DNA of 15,463 nucleotides. Source: Planctomycetota bacterium. GTDB taxonomy: Bacteria > Planctomycetota > Phycisphaerae > WQYP01. The notes under the pieces were generated by a model that had not been told where the DNA came from, ran no database searches, and saw only the letters and a list, made by a program, of their open reading frames with translations. The stretch covers positions 1-15,463 of the forward strand of contig JAJZCU010000006.1 of NCBI GenBank assembly GCA_021828935.1, in the 5' to 3' direction. Each line of letters starts with the position of its first letter. Position 1 is the first letter of the stretch. Of this stretch, positions 1-12,403 are shown one piece after another. Made by a program: the position numbers and the translations under genes.

Positions 1-56
1 TGCCTTGAGAACCGGGTCCGTGCCCTGGCGGCCATTGCGCTGCTTGCCTTGCTCAT
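1..56 (-). CDS. 5' end of a downstream operon gene (partial, cut by the window edge)
   Basis: On the minus strand an ATG at 56-54 overlaps the TGA stop (55-53) of the large NERD-kinase gene in the classic ATGA arrangement. The frame then stays open for 18 codons to the window edge, reading MSKASSAMAARARTRFSR. This overlap is typical of translationally coupled genes in one operon, so the product probably works with the NERD-kinase protein. The visible N-terminus is basic and Ala/Ser/Arg-rich and carries no diagnostic motif, so no function can be assigned. In known systems with a NERD-kinase, neighbours are often a DNA methyltransferase, ATPase or helicase, but nothing visible here distinguishes these. 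A chance overlap cannot be excluded from 18 codons alone. Confidence 0.5.
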   Translation of the reverse strand, partial: MSKASSAMAARARTRFSR

Positions 57-3000
57 TCGCATACCCCATTTAAGGCTGGAACGATTGTCAGGCACTGCCG
101 GGTTCCTTCGGAACCCACGAGGCGTTGCTCCGCCCGCACCCGAAAAATCGAGTCGTCTGCCATGGGATTCCAAGCTAGCAGCTCCCCAGCGTCCTCTTGA
201 ACCAGCCGTTGAACGAAGATAGAAAGGTTGGCAAATGTGTCGTCCGTTGACACGTCTCCGAGCTGATAGCCGTCCGCGAGCTCAAGCAGTAAGTGGAAAA
301 GCTCCGCGCCCAGTCGAAGATGTTCCTCGCGGCCGTCGCTGCACCGATAAATTAGCAGCGCCTGCCGGTGCAACCGCTCAATACCGTCAGTCGGCTGCGG
401 AAGCGACGCATTGAGGCGGAACGACGAAAGTGGTTTTTCAACCCAAAAGGCCGTCTCGGTTGGCGTCCGCGGGGTTATGCGAAGGGGCACGTTGTCTCGC
501 TCAAGCGCGCGGGGCGGGAGGTCCTCAAGGCGAGAGATTCCTTTGCATAGGTCGCGGCATATAGCTTGCAATCGCGCGTTATCAAATAGCGGAAGGTCAC
601 GGAACTTCCGCATGTGGCGACCGCAGGCGATGTCCAAGGCATCGGGGTCGCCGGCGATTTGCTTGATCTCGGCAGCGGACCATTCGAAGAACGCCCTTCT
701 GCGGCCAGATGCAAGTGCCAAATTTGGATACCGGGGAGCCGAGGGCAGCGAATCTGCGATGGGTTCGCTCGTGAGATAACGGTCGATTTGCGGGTGCGCC
801 TCTAATGCCGGATCAAGCCGAACCAACTCGCGCAGCACCTCGCCCTGGCGCGATGGCGATTCCGCTTCGAACGCTCTATCCCAATAGCCCGGAGTACTAG
901 CTCCTTTCTCACTGTGGTAGAATGTGCAGAAATGCACCCCAAAAAGAATGTAGACTAGGGCGGCGCGAAGCTCGCGTACTGTGATATGGGTTTCACCGCG
1001 CAGATGCACAGCCTGAAGCGACTCGGCGAGGCGCTCTCTCGCTCGTTTGCGCGCCTCCGCGCTTAGCTTGGTTGGAAATCCTTCCGGAGCAAAGAGCTGG
1101 CCGGCGCGAAATACCTCACAACGTGATTGGGCGGAGCAGGTGGAGCATGGCATCCACGTTTCTGCGGTGTCAGAACCGCCATAGAGTTGGTCGAGCAGCC
1201 GGTCAAGAAAATCGGTTGTTATCCTGAGCGAATCTGCTGATACGTCGCCCACCAAAGTGCGCTGATTTAAGTTGACGAATCGAATATGCCCCACGCGGTC
1301 CGCCGCGTCAGGCTGGAGCAGCCTGAACAGCGCCTCGGTGAGCGGTGTGGATTGTCCGGAATGGCGCCCTTCATACCCCTCAGTCCACTCAAGCAATCGG
1401 CCATCGTTAACGGCCAAAAGGTGGGCCACATCTTGGGAGGGAAAACCATTTTGAAAGGGGCCGAGGAACTCGTCGAGGAGATCGTCTGCAGACTTCCCCT
1501 TCCATGCAGCCGAGCCGTCAAGATTCATTTTGATAACAAGACCATCTGGTAGCTTCCCTTTAAGGATCCGGTCTGCCGACGTATGCTTGCCAAGACCGAG
1601 CCGCTGTGCAATGTGCTGAAGCAGCGACGTTTTGCCGTCCCCGGCGTTCCCGCATAGCACGACCAAACGACTTTTCCGAGACTTCATATCGCTTATCAGC
1701 GTCTGTTCAAGCGTGGTTTCCACATACGTCGACGCGGCGAAGGGGCTATCCAAGCCTCGCGTTTCCTGATTACCCGTAGGTGATCCGGGATACGACCTTA
1801 GTACATTCCCAAGCCATTCCACGTGGCGTTCGCCGATCTTGACCGCCGGAACTATTTGGGCGGTAACGGCGCCTTGAGCGCCTGCCGGATGCGGCGTTGG
1901 CGCTGCAGAGGCTGCCGGGGCGGTATCCCTCAAGAACGCATTCACATCATCCACCGACGAAAATCGACGGGTCGGGTCAGGATCGGTCGCGCGTTGGAGG
2001 AAAATGTCGAGCAACTTATCGTCGCCGTGCGCTAACCCCTCCCAGTTAAGGCCTCGGTGCTTATCATAGCTGCCGTCGTATCTGAACGGCTCGCGGTCAT
2101 AAGTTACGTGAAAGAAGGTAGCGGCGAGGGCATAAATATCGTCGCTCGGCGTTCCCAAGCGCTCTCCATTTGGTTTGAGGGCGCTGTACAGGGCAGTACC
2201 GGCGCCGTGACACTTTTCGCCGACCTTTGTTACGAAATCGAAATCCGTCAACACCAGATCGTTTCCGGACACAATGAGATTTTGCGGACTGACATCCCCA
2301 TGGACAAGCCCGTTGCGGTGAAGAACGGCGAGCGAATTACAGACGGACTTAATCCACCGAATTGCTAATTCGACGCTATTCCGTTCTTGAAGATCGTCGG
2401 CGAGCAATGTCATCACGCCACGGAACTCCGCCAAGGGCGTTCCCTCGACCCACGCCATTAGCGACACAAACCCGTTTTCCTGCCAGTCATTTGCAACTTC
2501 AAATATGGCAGAGAGGCCTGTGTGTCGGCCAAGGTGAGATCTGGCCAGCCCATAAGCGCGCAACGTTTGAGTCCCCATGGCTGCGTCACGCACAACCTTT
2601 GCAACATAGGTTCCGAGATCTTCCTTGGTTGACCGGTCGACTTCGACCACCTTGAAGGCTGCCCCCACCCCACCCGTGCCGAGTGTGTTGAGAATGCGGT
2701 AATCGCGGTCGTGAAATGTGACCAATTGCCCTTCAGTCCAATACCGGGATGGCGGCGCAGCGGGCCGCGGATGCGTTTTGCCGAGCAGGCGACCGAATTC
2801 CGCGTGCAAATATTCTAATGAGGGCCTTGTTGGCGGATCATTGACCGTGCCGCCAGCAAGGATGTCGATAGCCTTCTCGCACATTTCGCCATGGGTCCCG
2901 TCGAAGATGGTTGCCAATGAGGCGCAGACTGAAAAGACATCAGAACGCACGTCTGCGGCGCCAAGACCGCCGGCAACCACCTCTGGCGCGGCGAACTCGG

Positions 3001-4087
3001 CAGCCTTGTCCGGCAGTTGATAGCCCGCCGCCACGCTTATCTCCGACGAGATTTTGGTCCGGTCGAAACCAGTGAAGATCGGAGCGTTGTCGTGCCTTAC
3101 TAGGATATTGGCCGGGCTAAGATTTCGATGCGTGAGCTGTTCTCCGTCCGCTTTTGCTTGATGCATTTCCGCCAACGCGCGGATCGCGCCGCTTACAAAT
3201 TCGGCGCGGTCGGGCACGGACCAGGTAACATCATCTTTGCGCACGGCGATTGATGGCGCCGCCGGGTCGACAACTGTAAAGAACGACATTTCTCCCGGAT
3301 ATCCGGGAGCGTCTTGGAACGAGTCAAGAATTCGCGGCGCCCATGGGTGAAGCTGCAGCCGATGCAGCGCGTCAAACTCCCGACGAGCCCTTGTTGCCGC
3401 GTTCTTGTCGTCGCTTGCCGACAGATCGTAAAGGTGCAACACCGCCCTGTCCCGGCGGGCGGGGTGGCTACCACGGTAGACGCGGTGGAACCGATCCTCC
3501 CGGCCGGACTGAAGCTCAAGATTGACGTATCCGGCGAATCTTCGAAGGCTTCCTTCCAAGGACAGTCGGCTGCGGGGTTCCAAGCATTGGCTCAGCCGCT
3601 TAGCTTGTTCTGGCGGCAGCGTCGGCGCTCCGGTCCCGCCGATCACTTCCTTCCAATCACTTAGCCCATAAAAGGTAACGCCCCGCACCGCCTGCCCCAC
3701 CAATCGCTTAATTTTCGGCGGATCCTGCGTCAAGAGAAAAACCCCGTCAACTCGGGGCAGGCCTCGAAACTGCTTCCGGAGTGTTGTACCGATCTTACGC
3801 GCCTTACTTGTGACGAGGTCGGCCTCGCGTTCAAGATCGTAACCGCGAGCCTTAACAATTTCGGCGTTCCAGTGCTTGACCTCAATCACGCGCACGCCGG
3901 GCGGTCCAATTGCAATGATGTCAATCTCGTCGGATTGCATGCGATCGGTTACGGAGAAGGCGATGTTAGTAAGGAATATCCATTCTTCTGAGCCGGGCGC
4001 ATCCTGGACGCGGGCCTTCAGGTGCTCAATGGCCTTGCGTTCGCTTTCATTTGCGGTCGGGCCGCACGGAATAAACAACGCCTTCAT
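53..4087 (-). CDS. NERD - pseudokinase - protein kinase - P-loop NTPase multidomain protein (PglW/MAD6-like, putative defence protein)
   Basis: This 1344-residue protein appears to be cytoplasmic. Residues about 10-135 form a NERD (nuclease-related) domain with a PD-(D/E)XK-like core: DEID at 53-56 and EVKHW at 69-73. Residues about 195-440 are a kinase fold with broken motifs: HRN at 320-322 instead of HRD, and GFD at 340-342 where DFG is expected. Residues about 460-720 are a second kinase with a Gly loop (LGTGGVG, 469-475), the VAK lysine K497, HGD at 596-598, N603 and DFD at 615-617, so it is plausibly active. A low-complexity Ala/Pro linker (722-740) leads to a P-loop NTPase with Walker A GNAGDGKTS (813-821). 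A CxxC-x5-C cluster (981-990) could bind metal. NERD plus Ser/Thr kinase is the hallmark of PglW (BREX type 2) and MAD6 (MADS). The start is supported by AGGGGC eight bases upstream of the ATG. The last codon overlaps the next gene. The defence role is inferred from architecture. Confidence 0.85.
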   Translation of the reverse strand: MKALFIPCGPTANESERKAIEHLKARVQDAPGSEEWIFLTNIAFSVTDRMQSDEIDIIAIGPPGVRVIEVKHWNAEIVKARGYDLEREADLVTSKARKIGTTLRKQFRGLPRVDGVFLLTQDPPKIKRLVGQAVRGVTFYGLSDWKEVIGGTGAPTLPPEQAKRLSQCLEPRSRLSLEGSLRRFAGYVNLELQSGREDRFHRVYRGSHPARRDRAVLHLYDLSASDDKNAATRARREFDALHRLQLHPWAPRILDSFQDAPGYPGEMSFFTVVDPAAPSIAVRKDDVTWSVPDRAEFVSGAIRALAEMHQAKADGEQLTHRNLSPANILVRHDNAPIFTGFDRTKISSEISVAAGYQLPDKAAEFAAPEVVAGGLGAADVRSDVFSVCASLATIFDGTHGEMCEKAIDILAGGTVNDPPTRPSLEYLHAEFGRLLGKTHPRPAAPPSRYWTEGQLVTFHDRDYRILNTLGTGGVGAAFKVVEVDRSTKEDLGTYVAKVVRDAAMGTQTLRAYGLARSHLGRHTGLSAIFEVANDWQENGFVSLMAWVEGTPLAEFRGVMTLLADDLQERNSVELAIRWIKSVCNSLAVLHRNGLVHGDVSPQNLIVSGNDLVLTDFDFVTKVGEKCHGAGTALYSALKPNGERLGTPSDDIYALAATFFHVTYDREPFRYDGSYDKHRGLNWEGLAHGDDKLLDIFLQRATDPDPTRRFSSVDDVNAFLRDTAPAASAAPTPHPAGAQGAVTAQIVPAVKIGERHVEWLGNVLRSYPGSPTGNQETRGLDSPFAASTYVETTLEQTLISDMKSRKSRLVVLCGNAGDGKTSLLQHIAQRLGLGKHTSADRILKGKLPDGLVIKMNLDGSAAWKGKSADDLLDEFLGPFQNGFPSQDVAHLLAVNDGRLLEWTEGYEGRHSGQSTPLTEALFRLLQPDAADRVGHIRFVNLNQRTLVGDVSADSLRITTDFLDRLLDQLYGGSDTAETWMPCSTCSAQSRCEVFRAGQLFAPEGFPTKLSAEARKRARERLAESLQAVHLRGETHITVRELRAALVYILFGVHFCTFYHSEKGASTPGYWDRAFEAESPSRQGEVLRELVRLDPALEAHPQIDRYLTSEPIADSLPSAPRYPNLALASGRRRAFFEWSAAEIKQIAGDPDALDIACGRHMRKFRDLPLFDNARLQAICRDLCKGISRLEDLPPRALERDNVPLRITPRTPTETAFWVEKPLSSFRLNASLPQPTDGIERLHRQALLIYRCSDGREEHLRLGAELFHLLLELADGYQLGDVSTDDTFANLSIFVQRLVQEDAGELLAWNPMADDSIFRVRAEQRLVGSEGTRQCLTIVPALNGVCE

Positions 4088-4210
4088 GGTATTTGCCCCT
4101 GATCAGACAACCGCCATTGCGGCCATGGCCGTCCGCCTCATTGGCCTCGGGGGCCAACCGGTCGACGCGCCCGGCAGCAACGTCTCAGCAATCCCATAGC
4201 AGCGCACGGT

Positions 4211-4246
4211 TGTCAATTTGACAGTTAATGCCGGCCGTTGTCAAAT
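4211..4246. promoter_or_regulatory. Cluster of three TGTCAA half-sites (candidate operator)
   Basis: A perfect palindrome TGTCAAtTTGACA lies at 4211-4223, and a third half-site TGTCAA follows at 4240-4245. The second and third half-sites also form an inverted repeat, TTTGACA then TGTCAAA, separated by 16 bases. TTGACA is also the sigma-70 -35 consensus and occurs in both orientations here, but the matching -10 boxes are poor (TCAAAT at 17 bases). The site lies about 124 bases upstream of the NERD-kinase start and far upstream of the HipA-like gene. It could bind a dimeric repressor controlling the NERD-kinase gene or both units. The protein that would bind it is not in the window. Confidence 0.4.
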
Positions 4247-4263
4247 CATATTTTCTTTTTCGA

Positions 4264-4293
4264 CTGTTCCCGTCTGTTCCCGTCTGTTCCCGT
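4264..4293 (+). repeat. Three tandem copies of a 10-bp unit, CTGTTCCCGT
   Basis: The unit CTGTTCCCGT occurs three times head to tail without a mismatch at 4264-4273, 4274-4283 and 4284-4293. It directly follows a T-rich stretch and lies in the divergent intergenic region. A unit of 10 bp is close to one helical turn, so it would present identical faces to a binding protein. It could also be simple replication slippage with no function. Confidence 0.9.
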
Positions 4294-4558
4294 TTTGAAA
4301 TGCTCTGCCGCGACGCATCGGATATTGACGCCGGAAGGATGGGTATCGCCGCAGCGCCCGCCGGCGCCCGTTGGGAAGAGGGTACCGGCGCCATCGGAGA
4401 AGGTCGCGCGGCAGACCGTTGCCCGACGCCCAATTCCGCCCGCCAGCGCTGCAATCGGCGAGGGCTTACCGAATTTCCTGCCCAGGTCCATTCCCGAATG
4501 GTATTAAGGGGACGACGACGCCACATGAACGTGGAAAAAAGCACGGGCGGCGCGTCCG

Positions 4559-4587
4559 TTGCGGGCCACGGTTCATTGCGATAAAAT
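4559..4587 (+). promoter_or_regulatory. Candidate sigma-70-like promoter for the HipA-like/DUF3037 operon
   Basis: TTGCGG at 4559-4564 and TAAAAT at 4582-4587 are separated by 17 bases, a good match in spacing and in the -10 box, with a weaker -35. Transcription would start near 4594. That leaves a leader of about 30 bases to the GTG at 4624 and places GGAGGA (4607-4612) in it. It would put the Shine-Dalgarno-like sequence of the out-of-frame ATG at 4602 right at the RNA 5' end. No experiment supports this. Confidence 0.4.
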
Positions 4588-4623
4588 GTCGGGAGGTCTT
4601 AATGGCGGAGGACATCAGCACGC

Positions 4624-5361
4624 GTGCCAGTAGCAAACTACAAGGTTTTCCAGTGGGGCAATCCCGTGGGCCGCGGGGTGATGGGTTCGCGCTACGTGGC
4701 CGTTTCAGGCGTGGCCAAGGCCGCCACCGATGCGATGCCCATGGCCGTGGTGAATGAGCTAATTTGCGCAGACCTCGCGCGAGCCGTTAAACTTCCAGTT
4801 CCCCCGAGCTTCCTCGTCCATAATGGCGATGGGACGCCGTATCACGTATCGTTGAACTTCTATCTGGCCGGCGAAGACCTTCCGCCAGCCGACGCCGGCG
4901 CAGTGGTCGCCGACCTTCCGGCCTTTGCGGCAGGGATTGTGCTCTTCGACGCATGGGTATGCAATGAAGATCGGCATCCTAGCAACTTGGCCTATGACAG
5001 GCCATCAAGGCGTGTCACCCTTTTTGATCACAGCCACAGCTTTCTCACAGGCGACTGGCCGCAGCGGCTTGAACGCGTCAAAAGCGAGTTGGCAATCGGA
5101 AACCACTGCATAGCTCGCGAACTCACGCGAGTCGACGGCTTCAGCGCATGGCACAAGCGGATTATGGCCGTACCCGAGTTCTACATTAAGGAGGCGGTTG
5201 CGCAGGCGGTTGGGATTGGCCCGATGGACGCGCATGTCGCTGCGTTTGCTGCTGGCTATCTGCTGGATCGCCGCGATCGCCTTTTGGATTTAGTTGACGC
5301 CCATAGGGCCGTGTTCCCGAAAATAAACGAAGCGCAATGGGCTGCGCTGAAAGGAGACTGA
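4624..5361 (+). CDS. HipA-like kinase (HipA_2-type), 245 residues
   Basis: The protein shows the C-lobe signature of HipA-related kinases: a conserved N44-E45 helix (VVNELICADLARAV), the catalytic loop NEDRHPSN (114-121) with D116 as the likely catalytic base and N121 as metal ligand, and LFDHSHSF (133-140) with D135 in the DFG position. It is much shorter than classical HipA (about 440 residues) and fits the compact HipA-like family. The N-terminal ATP-anchoring lysine expected near residue 27 is not obvious (YVAVSG there). The GTG start at 4624 is chosen because an in-frame stop lies at 4600-4602 and GGAGGA (4607-4612) is a usable binding site. An ATG at 4602 with a better binding site is in another frame. 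The next gene starts two bases after the stop, so the two form an operon. The likely role is a kinase component of a defence or toxin-like pair; its target is unknown. Confidence 0.75.
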   Translation: MPVANYKVFQWGNPVGRGVMGSRYVAVSGVAKAATDAMPMAVVNELICADLARAVKLPVPPSFLVHNGDGTPYHVSLNFYLAGEDLPPADAGAVVADLPAFAAGIVLFDAWVCNEDRHPSNLAYDRPSRRVTLFDHSHSFLTGDWPQRLERVKSELAIGNHCIARELTRVDGFSAWHKRIMAVPEFYIKEAVAQAVGIGPMDAHVAAFAAGYLLDRRDRLLDLVDAHRAVFPKINEAQWAALKGD

Positions 5362-5363
5362 CC

Positions 5364-6212
5364 ATGGCACGCGTTGCACGTTACTTAATCGCCCAGCACG
5401 TCGCGGATCTTTTTCGCAACGAGCCGCGGAACGTGGGCGTTGTCGTGCAGATCGATGCCGATCACACGTCGCGGTTTATTGGGGAAAGCGCCTCGGGCGG
5501 CATTGACGGACGCTTGATAAAGCACATGCCGTACCCAGACGTATATCGCCAGTGGGTTGAGTACTGGAATTCCACACTCGCGGGCGGCGGCGACGCGCTG
5601 TCGGAAATTATTAAAACCAGCGGTGAGCATTACCGGGTCGTGGACGGGGGCGAGGTTGCGGATATCGCCGAGGATTCGGTACAGAAAGTCGCAAACTTTC
5701 TGTTTGACTCGCTTGTTGATGAAGCGGGCTTCGCCAAGTCGCTGGGAGGTGAAGAGGCGGAAATCGTCACGGTGCAACTACAGCAGGATGTCACGGCCCA
5801 GCTTGCAGCGCTGTCAATACTGTCGGACGGCGAGGCAATCGCCAATGTTAAGCATCCTGTGATGCGAAACAAGACCATCCGAGGGCAAACGGCGGCCCAC
5901 AGCCCCGCCTTGTTCCAACAGAACGGGCATCCGATTCTCATTGAGACAATTGATCTGACCGTGAGCCGGAAGATCGCGCTGCGGGATCACGCCGGATGGG
6001 CGTCTTTTATGTTCAACGATGTGCGACGTGCGGACGCGAAAGCCGAGTCGATCGCAATTACGCGTGTGACGGCGGAGGCCCAGGGGGACGAGCACGTAAC
6101 AAATGCGCTGGAAATGTTGCACGGGGCGGCGGATAAGATGGTCAATTGGATCAGCGATGACGAACGAGAGGCGTTCCTGAAAGAACGCGTCGAAGTCGCG
6201 AGATCGGCTTGA
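5364..6212 (+). CDS. DUF3037-like protein partnered with the HipA-like kinase
   Basis: This 282-residue protein is probably cytoplasmic, with no signal peptide or membrane segment. Its N-terminus (residues 3-40) has the RNEPRNVGVVV signature I associate with DUF3037 proteins, followed by RFIGES. The second half, with PILIETIDL near 200-210 and GWASFMFNDV near 221-230, looks like a second alpha/beta domain I cannot name. The ATG at 5364 is preferred over an in-frame upstream ATG at 5337 because AAGGAG (5351-5356) sits seven bases before it, and the later start leaves a two-base gap to the upstream gene instead of an overlap. HipA-like kinases and DUF3037 proteins recur as neighbours in bacteria (from memory, not checked), which suggests a kinase and its partner or antidote. 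The biochemical function is unknown. Confidence 0.65.
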   Translation: MARVARYLIAQHVADLFRNEPRNVGVVVQIDADHTSRFIGESASGGIDGRLIKHMPYPDVYRQWVEYWNSTLAGGGDALSEIIKTSGEHYRVVDGGEVADIAEDSVQKVANFLFDSLVDEAGFAKSLGGEEAEIVTVQLQQDVTAQLAALSILSDGEAIANVKHPVMRNKTIRGQTAAHSPALFQQNGHPILIETIDLTVSRKIALRDHAGWASFMFNDVRRADAKAESIAITRVTAEAQGDEHVTNALEMLHGAADKMVNWISDDEREAFLKERVEVARSA

Positions 6213-8195: not shown

Positions 8196-8346
8196 CTTGT
8201 CGCTACCCAGATTTTGCAAGGCGATATTTCGCAAGGAGGGACATTAGTTTATCCCACCCGCACCCATAAATCGAAGCCGCATTTTATTTGGCGGCGACGG
8301 CCAGGAGAACCGCCGATGACGCGGATGAACGCGGACACGACGAAGT
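8196..8346. repeat. Dispersed intergenic repeat, copy 1 (paired with 11265-11412)
   Basis: From CTTGTC at 8196 through TACCCAGATTTTGCAAGGCGA (8204 onward), ACATTAGTTTAT, AGCCGCATT and GATGACGCGGATGAACGCGG, this block aligns with 11265-11412 along its length with scattered substitutions and small gaps. The end carries short GCGGAT iterations. Within it GCGA-TATT-TCGC (8221-8232) could form a small hairpin, weakened in the other copy. The gap 8135-8470 between the TIM-barrel gene and the small plus-strand gene is mostly this repeat. I see no gene in it. Confidence 0.8.
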
Positions 8347-11264: not shown

Positions 11265-11412
11265 CTTGTCATTACCCAGATTTTGCAAGGCGACATCTAG
11301 CAAGAATCAACATTAGTTTATGCCAGCCAGGCCAAAAATCGGAGCCGCATTTCTGTTTGGCCGTGGCGACCAGACGAACCGCGGATGACGCGGATGAACG
11401 CGGATACGACGG
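11265..11412. repeat. Dispersed intergenic repeat, copy 2 (paired with 8196-8346)
   Basis: This block begins just after the stop of the small basic protein gene and shares with 8196-8346 the segments TACCCAGATTTTGCAAGGCGA, ACATTAGTTTAT, AGCCGCATTT and GATGACGCGGATGAACGCGG. Its right end merges into the larger mosaic repeat starting at 11378, which suggests repeats are nested or share a module. Confidence 0.8.
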
Positions 11413-11816
11413 AGGGAATGGCGGCGACCCAATCCCGTTTCCGCAGCGGCGTTGCGTCCAATAGAAACCGCAAAATTAGAGTTTCCTTGGCATTTCGGGC
11501 GTTGGGGGCAGCGTGCGCCGGGTTGGCCGGCGGCCAAGCCGCACTGTTTTTCCACCACCCGCAACGCCGCGCCCCGGGCGAGAAACAGGTTTCCGGCACA
11601 ACGGGCGCTCCCATCGGCGGCGCGGCGCCCAATATTTCCGCCCGGGGCGGCACGTTCGCGCATCAGTGGCCCCGCAACGCCGTGGAATTGTGCCGCCGCC
11701 ACGCGCCCGCCGCGGCCCGGTTGGGCCGGCGCGGGCGGCTAACAGTTCTGGCCACGGTTTGAAATTTTTGATGCCGTGCGCGTTCGTATGCACATGACGT
11801 TTCGCCCCGGTCGCGG
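11378..11816. repeat. Mosaic repeat, long copy (copy A)
   Basis: This is the longest of three related blocks. It starts with the GCGGAT iterations, passes through a segment at 11401-11460 that matches 12121-12180 with a single mismatch, then a central segment (11534-11669) absent from copy C, then a right part ending with GTATGCACATGACGTTTCGC that recurs at 12371-12390. Reading frames exist on both strands but conflict with each other and carry no ribosome binding sites, so I call no gene. Confidence 0.85.
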
Positions 11817-11930
11817 ATGTGCCGGCCGCGGCGCCCGAATTCGCGCCGCATGGCGTCCACCATCCGCCAATACATTCGTTGCCAAATATTCCACGCCCAT
11901 TATTAGCCGCGTCCGCAGACGCGCGGGGGC

Positions 11931-12093
11931 GCGTAACAGTTTTCCGACACAAGACATGCCCCCGTCGGCGGCGCGGCGCCCGATATTTCCGCCCGGGGCG
12001 GCACGTTCGCGCATCAGTGGCCTCGCAATGCCGCGGAACTGTGTCGCCGGCACGCGCCTGTCGCTGCCCGGTGGGCCGAAGCGGGCGGCCAAG
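11931..12093. repeat. Mosaic repeat, partial copy (copy B)
   Basis: This block matches only the middle of copy A (about 11579-11742), including GGCGGCGCGGCGCCC, ATATTTCCGCCCGGGGCGGC and TTCGCGCATCAGTGGCC. It contains the segment missing from copy C. The sequence between copies A and B (11817-11930) is not repeated elsewhere in the window. Confidence 0.8.
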
Positions 12094-12107
12094 ACCAAAT
12101 GGCGGGA

Positions 12108-12403
12108 ACCGCGGATAACGCGGATACGACGGAGGGCATGGCGGCGACCCAATCCCGTTTCCGCAGCGGCGTTGCGTCCAATAAAAACCGCAAGTTAGAG
12201 TTTACTTGGGGTTCCGGACGTTGGGGGGAGCGTGATTGCGCCGGGTTGGCCGGCGGCCCCGCAACGCCGCGGAATTGTGTCGCCGCCACGCGCCCGTCGC
12301 GGCCCGATGGGCCGGCGCGGGCGGCTAACAGGTCTGGCCACGGTTTGAAATTTTTGGCGCCGTGCGCGTTCGTATGCACATGACGTTTCGCCCCGGTCGT
12401 GGA
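12108..12403. repeat. Mosaic repeat, copy with a 136-bp internal deletion (copy C)
   Basis: This block starts 720 bp after the equivalent bases of copy A and follows it closely, but after GGGTTGGCCGGCGG (12243-12256) it jumps directly to CCCCGCAACGCC. The bases equivalent to 11534-11669 are missing. The junction has a short GGCC microhomology. The right end again reaches GTATGCACATGACGTTTCGC. No gene is seen. Confidence 0.85.

Follow-up and report, generated by a model that had tools for sequence, protein, structure and literature searches.

A NERD-kinase gene at a contig end in a Planctomycetota bacterium is probably the dndF of a DndFGH anti-invader system

Introduction

To which system does a defense gene belong if the contig ends where its partners should begin? 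This question is raised by a contig of 15,463 bases from a Planctomycetota bacterium (JAJZCU010000006.1, assembly GCA_021828935.1; C157 in our set), which we call the window. Its leftmost gene, here called F, joins a NERD nuclease-like domain, two kinase domains, and a P-loop NTPase in one polypeptide. An earlier reading of the sequence alone (the original prediction) described these four modules, related F to PglW of BREX type 2 and to MAD6 of MADS, and proposed a possibly undescribed kinase-based defense locus that might include two genes to the right of F, one HipA-like and one DUF3037-like. We report that F is very probably the dndF gene of a DndFGH anti-invader system, in a variant that begins with a NERD domain and continues with two kinases, of which the first is a pseudokinase and the second looks like an active Ser/Thr kinase. 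The proposal was right to call F a defense gene; such fusions are described in PMC10853773, so the term undescribed does not apply.

Results

The reading frame of F is uninterrupted across 1,344 codons of the minus strand, and its motifs are E69-V-K71, H320-R-N322, H596-G-D598, and GNAGDGKTS at 813–821. In Pfam, the protein kinase family matches residues 463–672 in two stretches (76.7 bits, cut-off 31.7) and an APH-like family matches residues 203–322 (25.9 bits, cut-off 23.2), while P-loop families match residues 789–835 only below their cut-offs. We examined conservation across 45 F proteins of more than 1,250 amino acids, including the one from the window. All 45 have the NERD residues D56, E69, and K71 and the Walker lysine K819. 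The second kinase retains K497 in 41/45 proteins, D598 in 40/45, N603 in 44/45, and D617 in 43/45. In the first kinase, the aspartate of the HRD motif is replaced by asparagine in 31 of the 45 (as in the HRN of the window) and is never present as aspartate; by our own reading, H218 occupies the position where the ATP-binding lysine is expected. Because of this pattern of conservation, the two kinases of F are one pseudokinase followed by one apparently active Ser/Thr kinase. The Walker A motif is invariant in two alignments, of 21 and 39 sequences (A1 and A4). The motifs lie exactly at the positions that had been predicted, and the reading of four modules is confirmed.

The C-terminal half of F resembles the DndF core. 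The PADLOC model for SspF matches residues 789–1051 (E = 9.7e-15), and alignment of the F core to four DptF proteins with hhalign gave a probability of 97.4 (E = 1.5e-11, 270 columns). F also contains an ND motif (N894-D895) and a cysteine cluster (C981, C984, and C990), and a helical lid and a beta-rich tail are visible in its AlphaFold2 model (pLDDT 90.3). In the published description, the DndF core combines a canonical Walker A with an ND motif and a very large helical lid, ends in an alpha+beta tail, and in some cases also bears a zinc insert; DndF cores with an N-terminal NERD domain and tandem inactive and active kinases were already reported by Rakesh, Aravind, and Krishnan in 2024 (PMC10853773), and the fusion is restated in PMC12839542. 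F shares the domain order, Walker A, ND motif, cysteine cluster, helical lid, and alpha+beta tail of these fusions. Compared with the published description, we found no structural difference, although the P-loop half may be AAA+-like.

To find relatives of F, we scanned species genomes with an alignment-based profile; a scan of genome contigs with the single F protein had found none. The profile scan gave 59 loci, and after removing one that matched the kinase only (L076), we had 58 loci from many phyla. We also checked 94 candidate stretches from viral contigs, and not one is a relative. F is far from a chance reading frame, as it has at least 1,040 homologs at E ≤ 0.001 (among 7,993 scored candidates); among 120 homologs listed, all except one span at least 98% of the query.

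Five of the 58 loci stop within 100 bases of F, which leaves 53 that are informative about its neighbor. All 53 encode a protein of about 600 amino acids, G, as found by tblastn, and 49 of them also encode a protein of about 1,660 amino acids, H; the other four contigs stop within or right after G. The gene order is F-G-H in 47 loci, F-G followed by the contig end in four, and G-H-F in two. Protein clusters other than these three each occur in at most 4 of 59 loci, counting the window. Over the 28 loci in which all three proteins are full-size, their pairwise distances show correlations of 0.94–0.98, and none of 999 permutations reached such values. Because of this correlation, F, G, and H travel as a unit. 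In the two G-H-F loci, from Chloracidobacterium and Blastocatellia (L073:3229-11728 and L075:7620-11797), F is the C-terminal core only, without the NERD and kinase domains, and these proteins are nested within the NERD-kinase clade in a quick tree.

H in these relatives is a large protein with a restriction endonuclease domain and a C-terminal HerA/FtsK motor, and it is homologous to DptH (hhalign, E = 2.1e-22; 7es4 was also counted as evidence). The D, E, and K residues of its nuclease are kept in 16–18 of 19 relatives. G, next to F, has the fold of DndG, which consists of three winged-helix modules (PMC10853773). The C-terminus of G from relatives also matches SspG (E = 5.2e-6 and 3e-10). 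(We omitted L088 when aligning DptG and DptH, since its annotation splits dptG in two and gives no dptH.) These comparisons show that F, G, and H of this clade are homologous to DptF/DndF, DndG, and DptH/DndH, with G assigned by its fold.

DndFGH as described in PMC10853773 and the trio in this clade are both three-gene operons that mostly lack dndABCDE, and that paper describes DndABCDE as commonly decoupled from DndFGH. When we searched the flanks of the 58 loci (814,895 bases) with DndB, DndC, DndD, and DndE from L090 and DndE from L089, there were no matches at E ≤ 1e-5; 26 of the 58 loci extend 5 kilobases upstream and 8 kilobases downstream, and the cross-matches between L089 and L090 are a control for DndD and DndE only. 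The related SspFGH system also has three genes, all of them required, and is reported to work with phosphorothioation by SspABCD (PMC8092258). In contrast, the clade of F has no recurrent modification gene alongside. Next to one trio, on a plasmid of Rhizobium anhuiense (L079:21144-23924), two annotated DNA methyltransferase genes directly follow F-G-H.

As the window is the whole contig, which ends 52 bases beyond the stop codon of F, the assembly offers nothing to the left of F, and the host genome is 54% complete. G and H of this organism likely lie on that side, beyond the contig end. Positions 1–56 may hold the first codons of dndG (Table 1).

Table 1. Features of the window, with the evidence for each
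Feature	Positions	Strand	Evidence
Possible start of G (dndG), 18 codons, whose ATG shares bases with the stop codon of F	1..56	-	Sequence; G directly follows F in relatives
F, DndF-type subunit, 1,344 amino acids: NERD, pseudokinase, kinase, P-loop NTPase with lid, alpha-beta domain	53..4087	-	Open frame
NERD nuclease-like domain, residues 13–80 (D56, E69, K71)	3848..4051	-	Pfam, 34.1 bits (cut-off 22.1)
First kinase, inactive (HRN for HRD), residues about 180–430	2798..3550	-	APH-like match and conservation; domain edges inferred
Second kinase, Ser/Thr, apparently active, residues 463–672 (K497, H596-G-D598, N603, D617)	2072..2701	-	Pfam, conservation
DndF core: P-loop NTPase, large helical lid, Cys cluster, residues about 756–1187	527..1822	-	SspF match, hhalign, AlphaFold2; edges from the secondary structure of the model
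Walker A, GNAGDGKT, residues 813–820	1628..1651	-	Invariant in alignments
Alpha+beta domain at the C-terminus of the DndF core, residues about 1192–1342	62..514	-	AlphaFold2 secondary structure
HipA-like kinase gene, divergent neighbor, judged outside the system	4624..5361	+	PF20613, 36.9 bits (cut-off 27)
Protein of about 290 amino acids, unnamed family, partner of the HipA-like gene, judged outside the system	5337..6212	+	96 homologs, no precomputed Pfam domain

Several observations weigh against identifying F as dndF. First, the model TIGR03238 matches F around the Walker A motif only, with 18.8 bits (cut-off 50), and its match to the F of L040, at 32.5 bits, is also below the cut-off. Second, comparing the profiles of DptG and G showed no link (probability 0.1); the assignment of G comes from the fold of this protein in a single relative. 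Third, in a second look, structural alignment of the model of F residues 743–1344 found AAA+/STAND ATPases and no nucleotide kinases, unlike the published reading of this core. Fourth, of 22 genomes (21 genomes with loci plus the window's own), 4 have a DndC match above the cut-off and 6 have one at E ≤ 0.001, so phosphorothioation is possible for a minority of clade members; there was no hit for DndC in the window's own genome, at 54% completeness. Fifth, neither G nor H had a match in that genome, in searches that lacked a positive control. Also, the division of labor among F, G, H, and the fused domains that we propose below is one that we infer. To our knowledge, no member of the F clade has been tested against phage.

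One reading of the missing G and H is that this genome has no partners for F, which would then be orphaned or decaying. Broken loci do exist in the family: the trio is fragmented in all three genes at L074:2273-10749, and at L068:15798-19247 it is interrupted by opposite-strand open reading frames inside H. But the frame of F is intact, its motifs are conserved, and G is present in every informative relative, so we consider an orphan very unlikely.

In other searches, TIGR03238 found only the weak match of the window itself across 294 genomes of the phylum; across 274 genomes of another class, its matches were a single true DptF, which is partial, and four that stayed below the cut-off. In sequence searches of the PDB, the best 60 of 438 matches for the profile of whole F were kinases, the profile of the F core had no match under E = 0.1, and G gave nothing useful. 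Foldseek found no match for the F core at E ≤ 0.001.

Could F instead be PglW, from the Pgl system (BREX type 2)? At the N-terminus, PglW has the same succession of NERD, inactive kinase, and active kinase as F (PMC12839542), and F has weak matches to PglW models (52.8 bits for PADLOC and 42.7 bits for NF033442). However, the cut-off for the latter is 990 bits. The C-terminal half of PglW is described as three winged helix-turn-helix domains and an inactive STAND module with degenerate Walker motifs (PMC12839542), while F has an invariant Walker A and a DptF-like C-terminal half. The partners differ as well, and for pglX, pglZ, brxC, brxHI, and brxD the evidence is indirect: G and H are the only neighbors of F that recur in more than 4 of 59 loci, in flanks that were not scanned with BREX models. 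It is extremely unlikely that F is PglW. In Pgl, the kinase is reported to be required for defense (PMC4365076).

Another comparison is with MADS (NF047741, NF047733; PADLOC mads_6-8). In two plasmid loci that score above the cut-offs for MADS2, MADS6, and MADS7, MAD6 (1,379 and 1,391 amino acids) has the full architecture of F, with a NERD domain, two kinases, and an F-type P-loop core. The two proteins align through the kinases and the P-loop core: after the kinases, MAD6 has the same core at 25–26% identity, through GNAGDGKT and the following strands. The resemblance extends to the neighboring genes. G and MAD7 are homologs: the G of two relatives matches MADS7 along its length, with 160.5 and 111.4 bits. 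MAD8 (1,850 amino acids in L080; PADLOC mad8, E = 1.3e-31), together with its counterpart in L081, is homologous to H, with 25–27% identity over parts. MAD6, MAD7, and MAD8 thus have the architecture of DndF, DndG, and DndH in both loci, which are from Hymenobacter (L080:7486-18779) and Piscinibacter (L081:7219-18640). Together, the three resemble a DndFGH of the NERD-kinase form that has been joined to genes for methylation.

These similarities raise the possibility that F is itself the MAD6 of a MADS locus, with MAD7, MAD8, and the modification genes on the missing left side. The scores do not favor this: MADS6 gives F 167.4 bits against a curated cut-off of 460, and the matches of MADS7 to G are far below its curated cut-off of 410. 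The original prediction had suggested running profile searches with PglW and MAD6 models, and both fall far short, yet the kinship of F to these proteins is upheld by the shared NERD and tandem-kinase architecture. Also, the MAD2 methyltransferase has just a weak partial match (25–31% identity) in 2 of the 58 loci, whose flanks vary in length. In the examined flanks of the other 56, there was no MAD2-like match at E ≤ 1e-5; as a control, the two MADS loci recovered each other (MAD1, MAD3, MAD4, and MAD5 were not searched as such). Finally, MAD6 lies outside the F clade in the quick tree (support 97, with long branches). We therefore consider it very unlikely that F is MAD6.

The remaining question is whether the genes to the right of F belong to the system. 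The two genes overlap and are likely one operon. The first is indeed HipA-like, as PF20613 scores above its cut-off. The DUF3037 label for the second is doubtful: this family matched 1 of 9 relatives (E = 0.12), and the protein from the window has no Pfam match. Under the original proposal, F, the HipA-like kinase, and its partner would form one new defense locus. F and the HipA-like gene are divergent and 536 bases apart, and the HipA-like protein has a weak match to a candidate-defense model (PDC-M03A, E = 1.5e-8). However, none of the 58 loci encodes either protein of the pair, save for one chance-level match of 60 amino acids (E = 0.51), and 44 of the 58 hold at least 2.2 kilobases upstream of F, which is the span needed to show the pair. 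Homologs of F have G and H as constant neighbors instead, on the opposite side of F. Because of its absence from these loci, the pair is probably not part of the system, and a joint locus seems extremely unlikely. The database places the protein of about 290 amino acids on two contigs, of which one has 35,385 bases, and F on a contig of 16,354 bases, so the pair may occur without F. A canonical Dnd locus on a plasmid of Massilia sp. H6 has HipA-domain and helix-turn-helix genes between dndE and dptF (L089:5384-7572), but by annotation this HipA-domain gene is of a different type.

As for the rest of the window, positions 11265–12403 (and also 8196–8345) are a mosaic of degenerate direct repeats of 43–150 nucleotides that is apparently non-coding, and one of its units is found again on three further contigs of this genome. 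We found no Rfam families at gathering thresholds, and no promoter or terminator patterns at positions 4000–4750.

The distribution of the trio fits horizontal transfer: the tree mixes phyla, and among 60 relatives of the host (own genome excluded), the only full-length F listed is divergent. It comes from a different family within the class, and its two halves are 39% and 53% identical. Two Rhizobium plasmids carry F-G-H, with 59% and 81% identity to Bosea for G and 57% and 74% for H. This quick tree places MAD6 and DptF on long branches; it does not include five loci without a full core, L036, L044, and L058 (too short) and L057 and L074 (no recognizable Walker A), or the DptF of L090, whose form of the Walker motif was not caught by our search pattern.

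Some loci have several copies of G. Thioalkalivibrio sp. HK1 has four tandem dndG-like genes, 54–86% identical, between F and H (L040:14071-21800), and a Caldilineaceae locus has two that are 94% identical (L028:14038-17744). These could be swapped DNA-recognition subunits.

Discussion

How might a DndFGH system with fused kinases work? We propose that G would bind DNA, while H would translocate along it by its HerA/FtsK motor and cut or nick it by its PD-(D/E)XK nuclease. The core of F may bind a nucleoside triphosphate and switch H on after sensing either infection or the state that the complex is in. A second arm beside the F core might be formed by the kinase and NERD domains fused to it: once activated, the kinase, gated by the pseudokinase, could phosphorylate a partner or host or phage proteins, and the NERD domain could attack DNA as a back-up or self-destructive effector. 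Given the structural alignment of the core to AAA+/STAND ATPases, another view is that the core is not a derived nucleotide kinase that senses modified nucleotides but an ATPase of this kind, which would assemble upon infection. We consider this quite possible, if somewhat short of an even chance.

Beyond what has been published, the new elements here are modest: the link to MADS and the tandem copies of G. Because MAD6-7-8 has the architecture of F-G-H, the restriction step of MADS is probably DndFGH-like. A 2026 review gives the restriction mechanism of MADS as unknown (PMC12904381), and among the open-licence papers that we searched we found none that joins MADS and DndFGH in this way. We give even odds to a broader scenario, in which F belongs to a modification-free sister of the restriction half of MADS, and MADS is a methylation-guided DndFGH. 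Both would descend from one ancestral kinase-controlled translocase-nuclease, which was later given phosphorothioation, methylation, or no self-mark.

Identifying F as dndF turns a suspected new system into one with a place. It also exposes a gap in annotation: this clade spans many phyla, with 58 loci and at least a thousand homologs, yet no Pfam, PADLOC, or NCBIfam model covers the F of the window as what it is, or any of the four partner proteins that we scanned (two each of G and H); the only matches are to pieces or to relatives below threshold. The link to MADS makes its restriction mechanism testable. And since no modification partner recurs beside this nuclease system, one must ask how it leaves self DNA intact. 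If our scenario is true, then in the branch without a mark, the kinase rather than DNA modification could keep the nuclease off the host genome.

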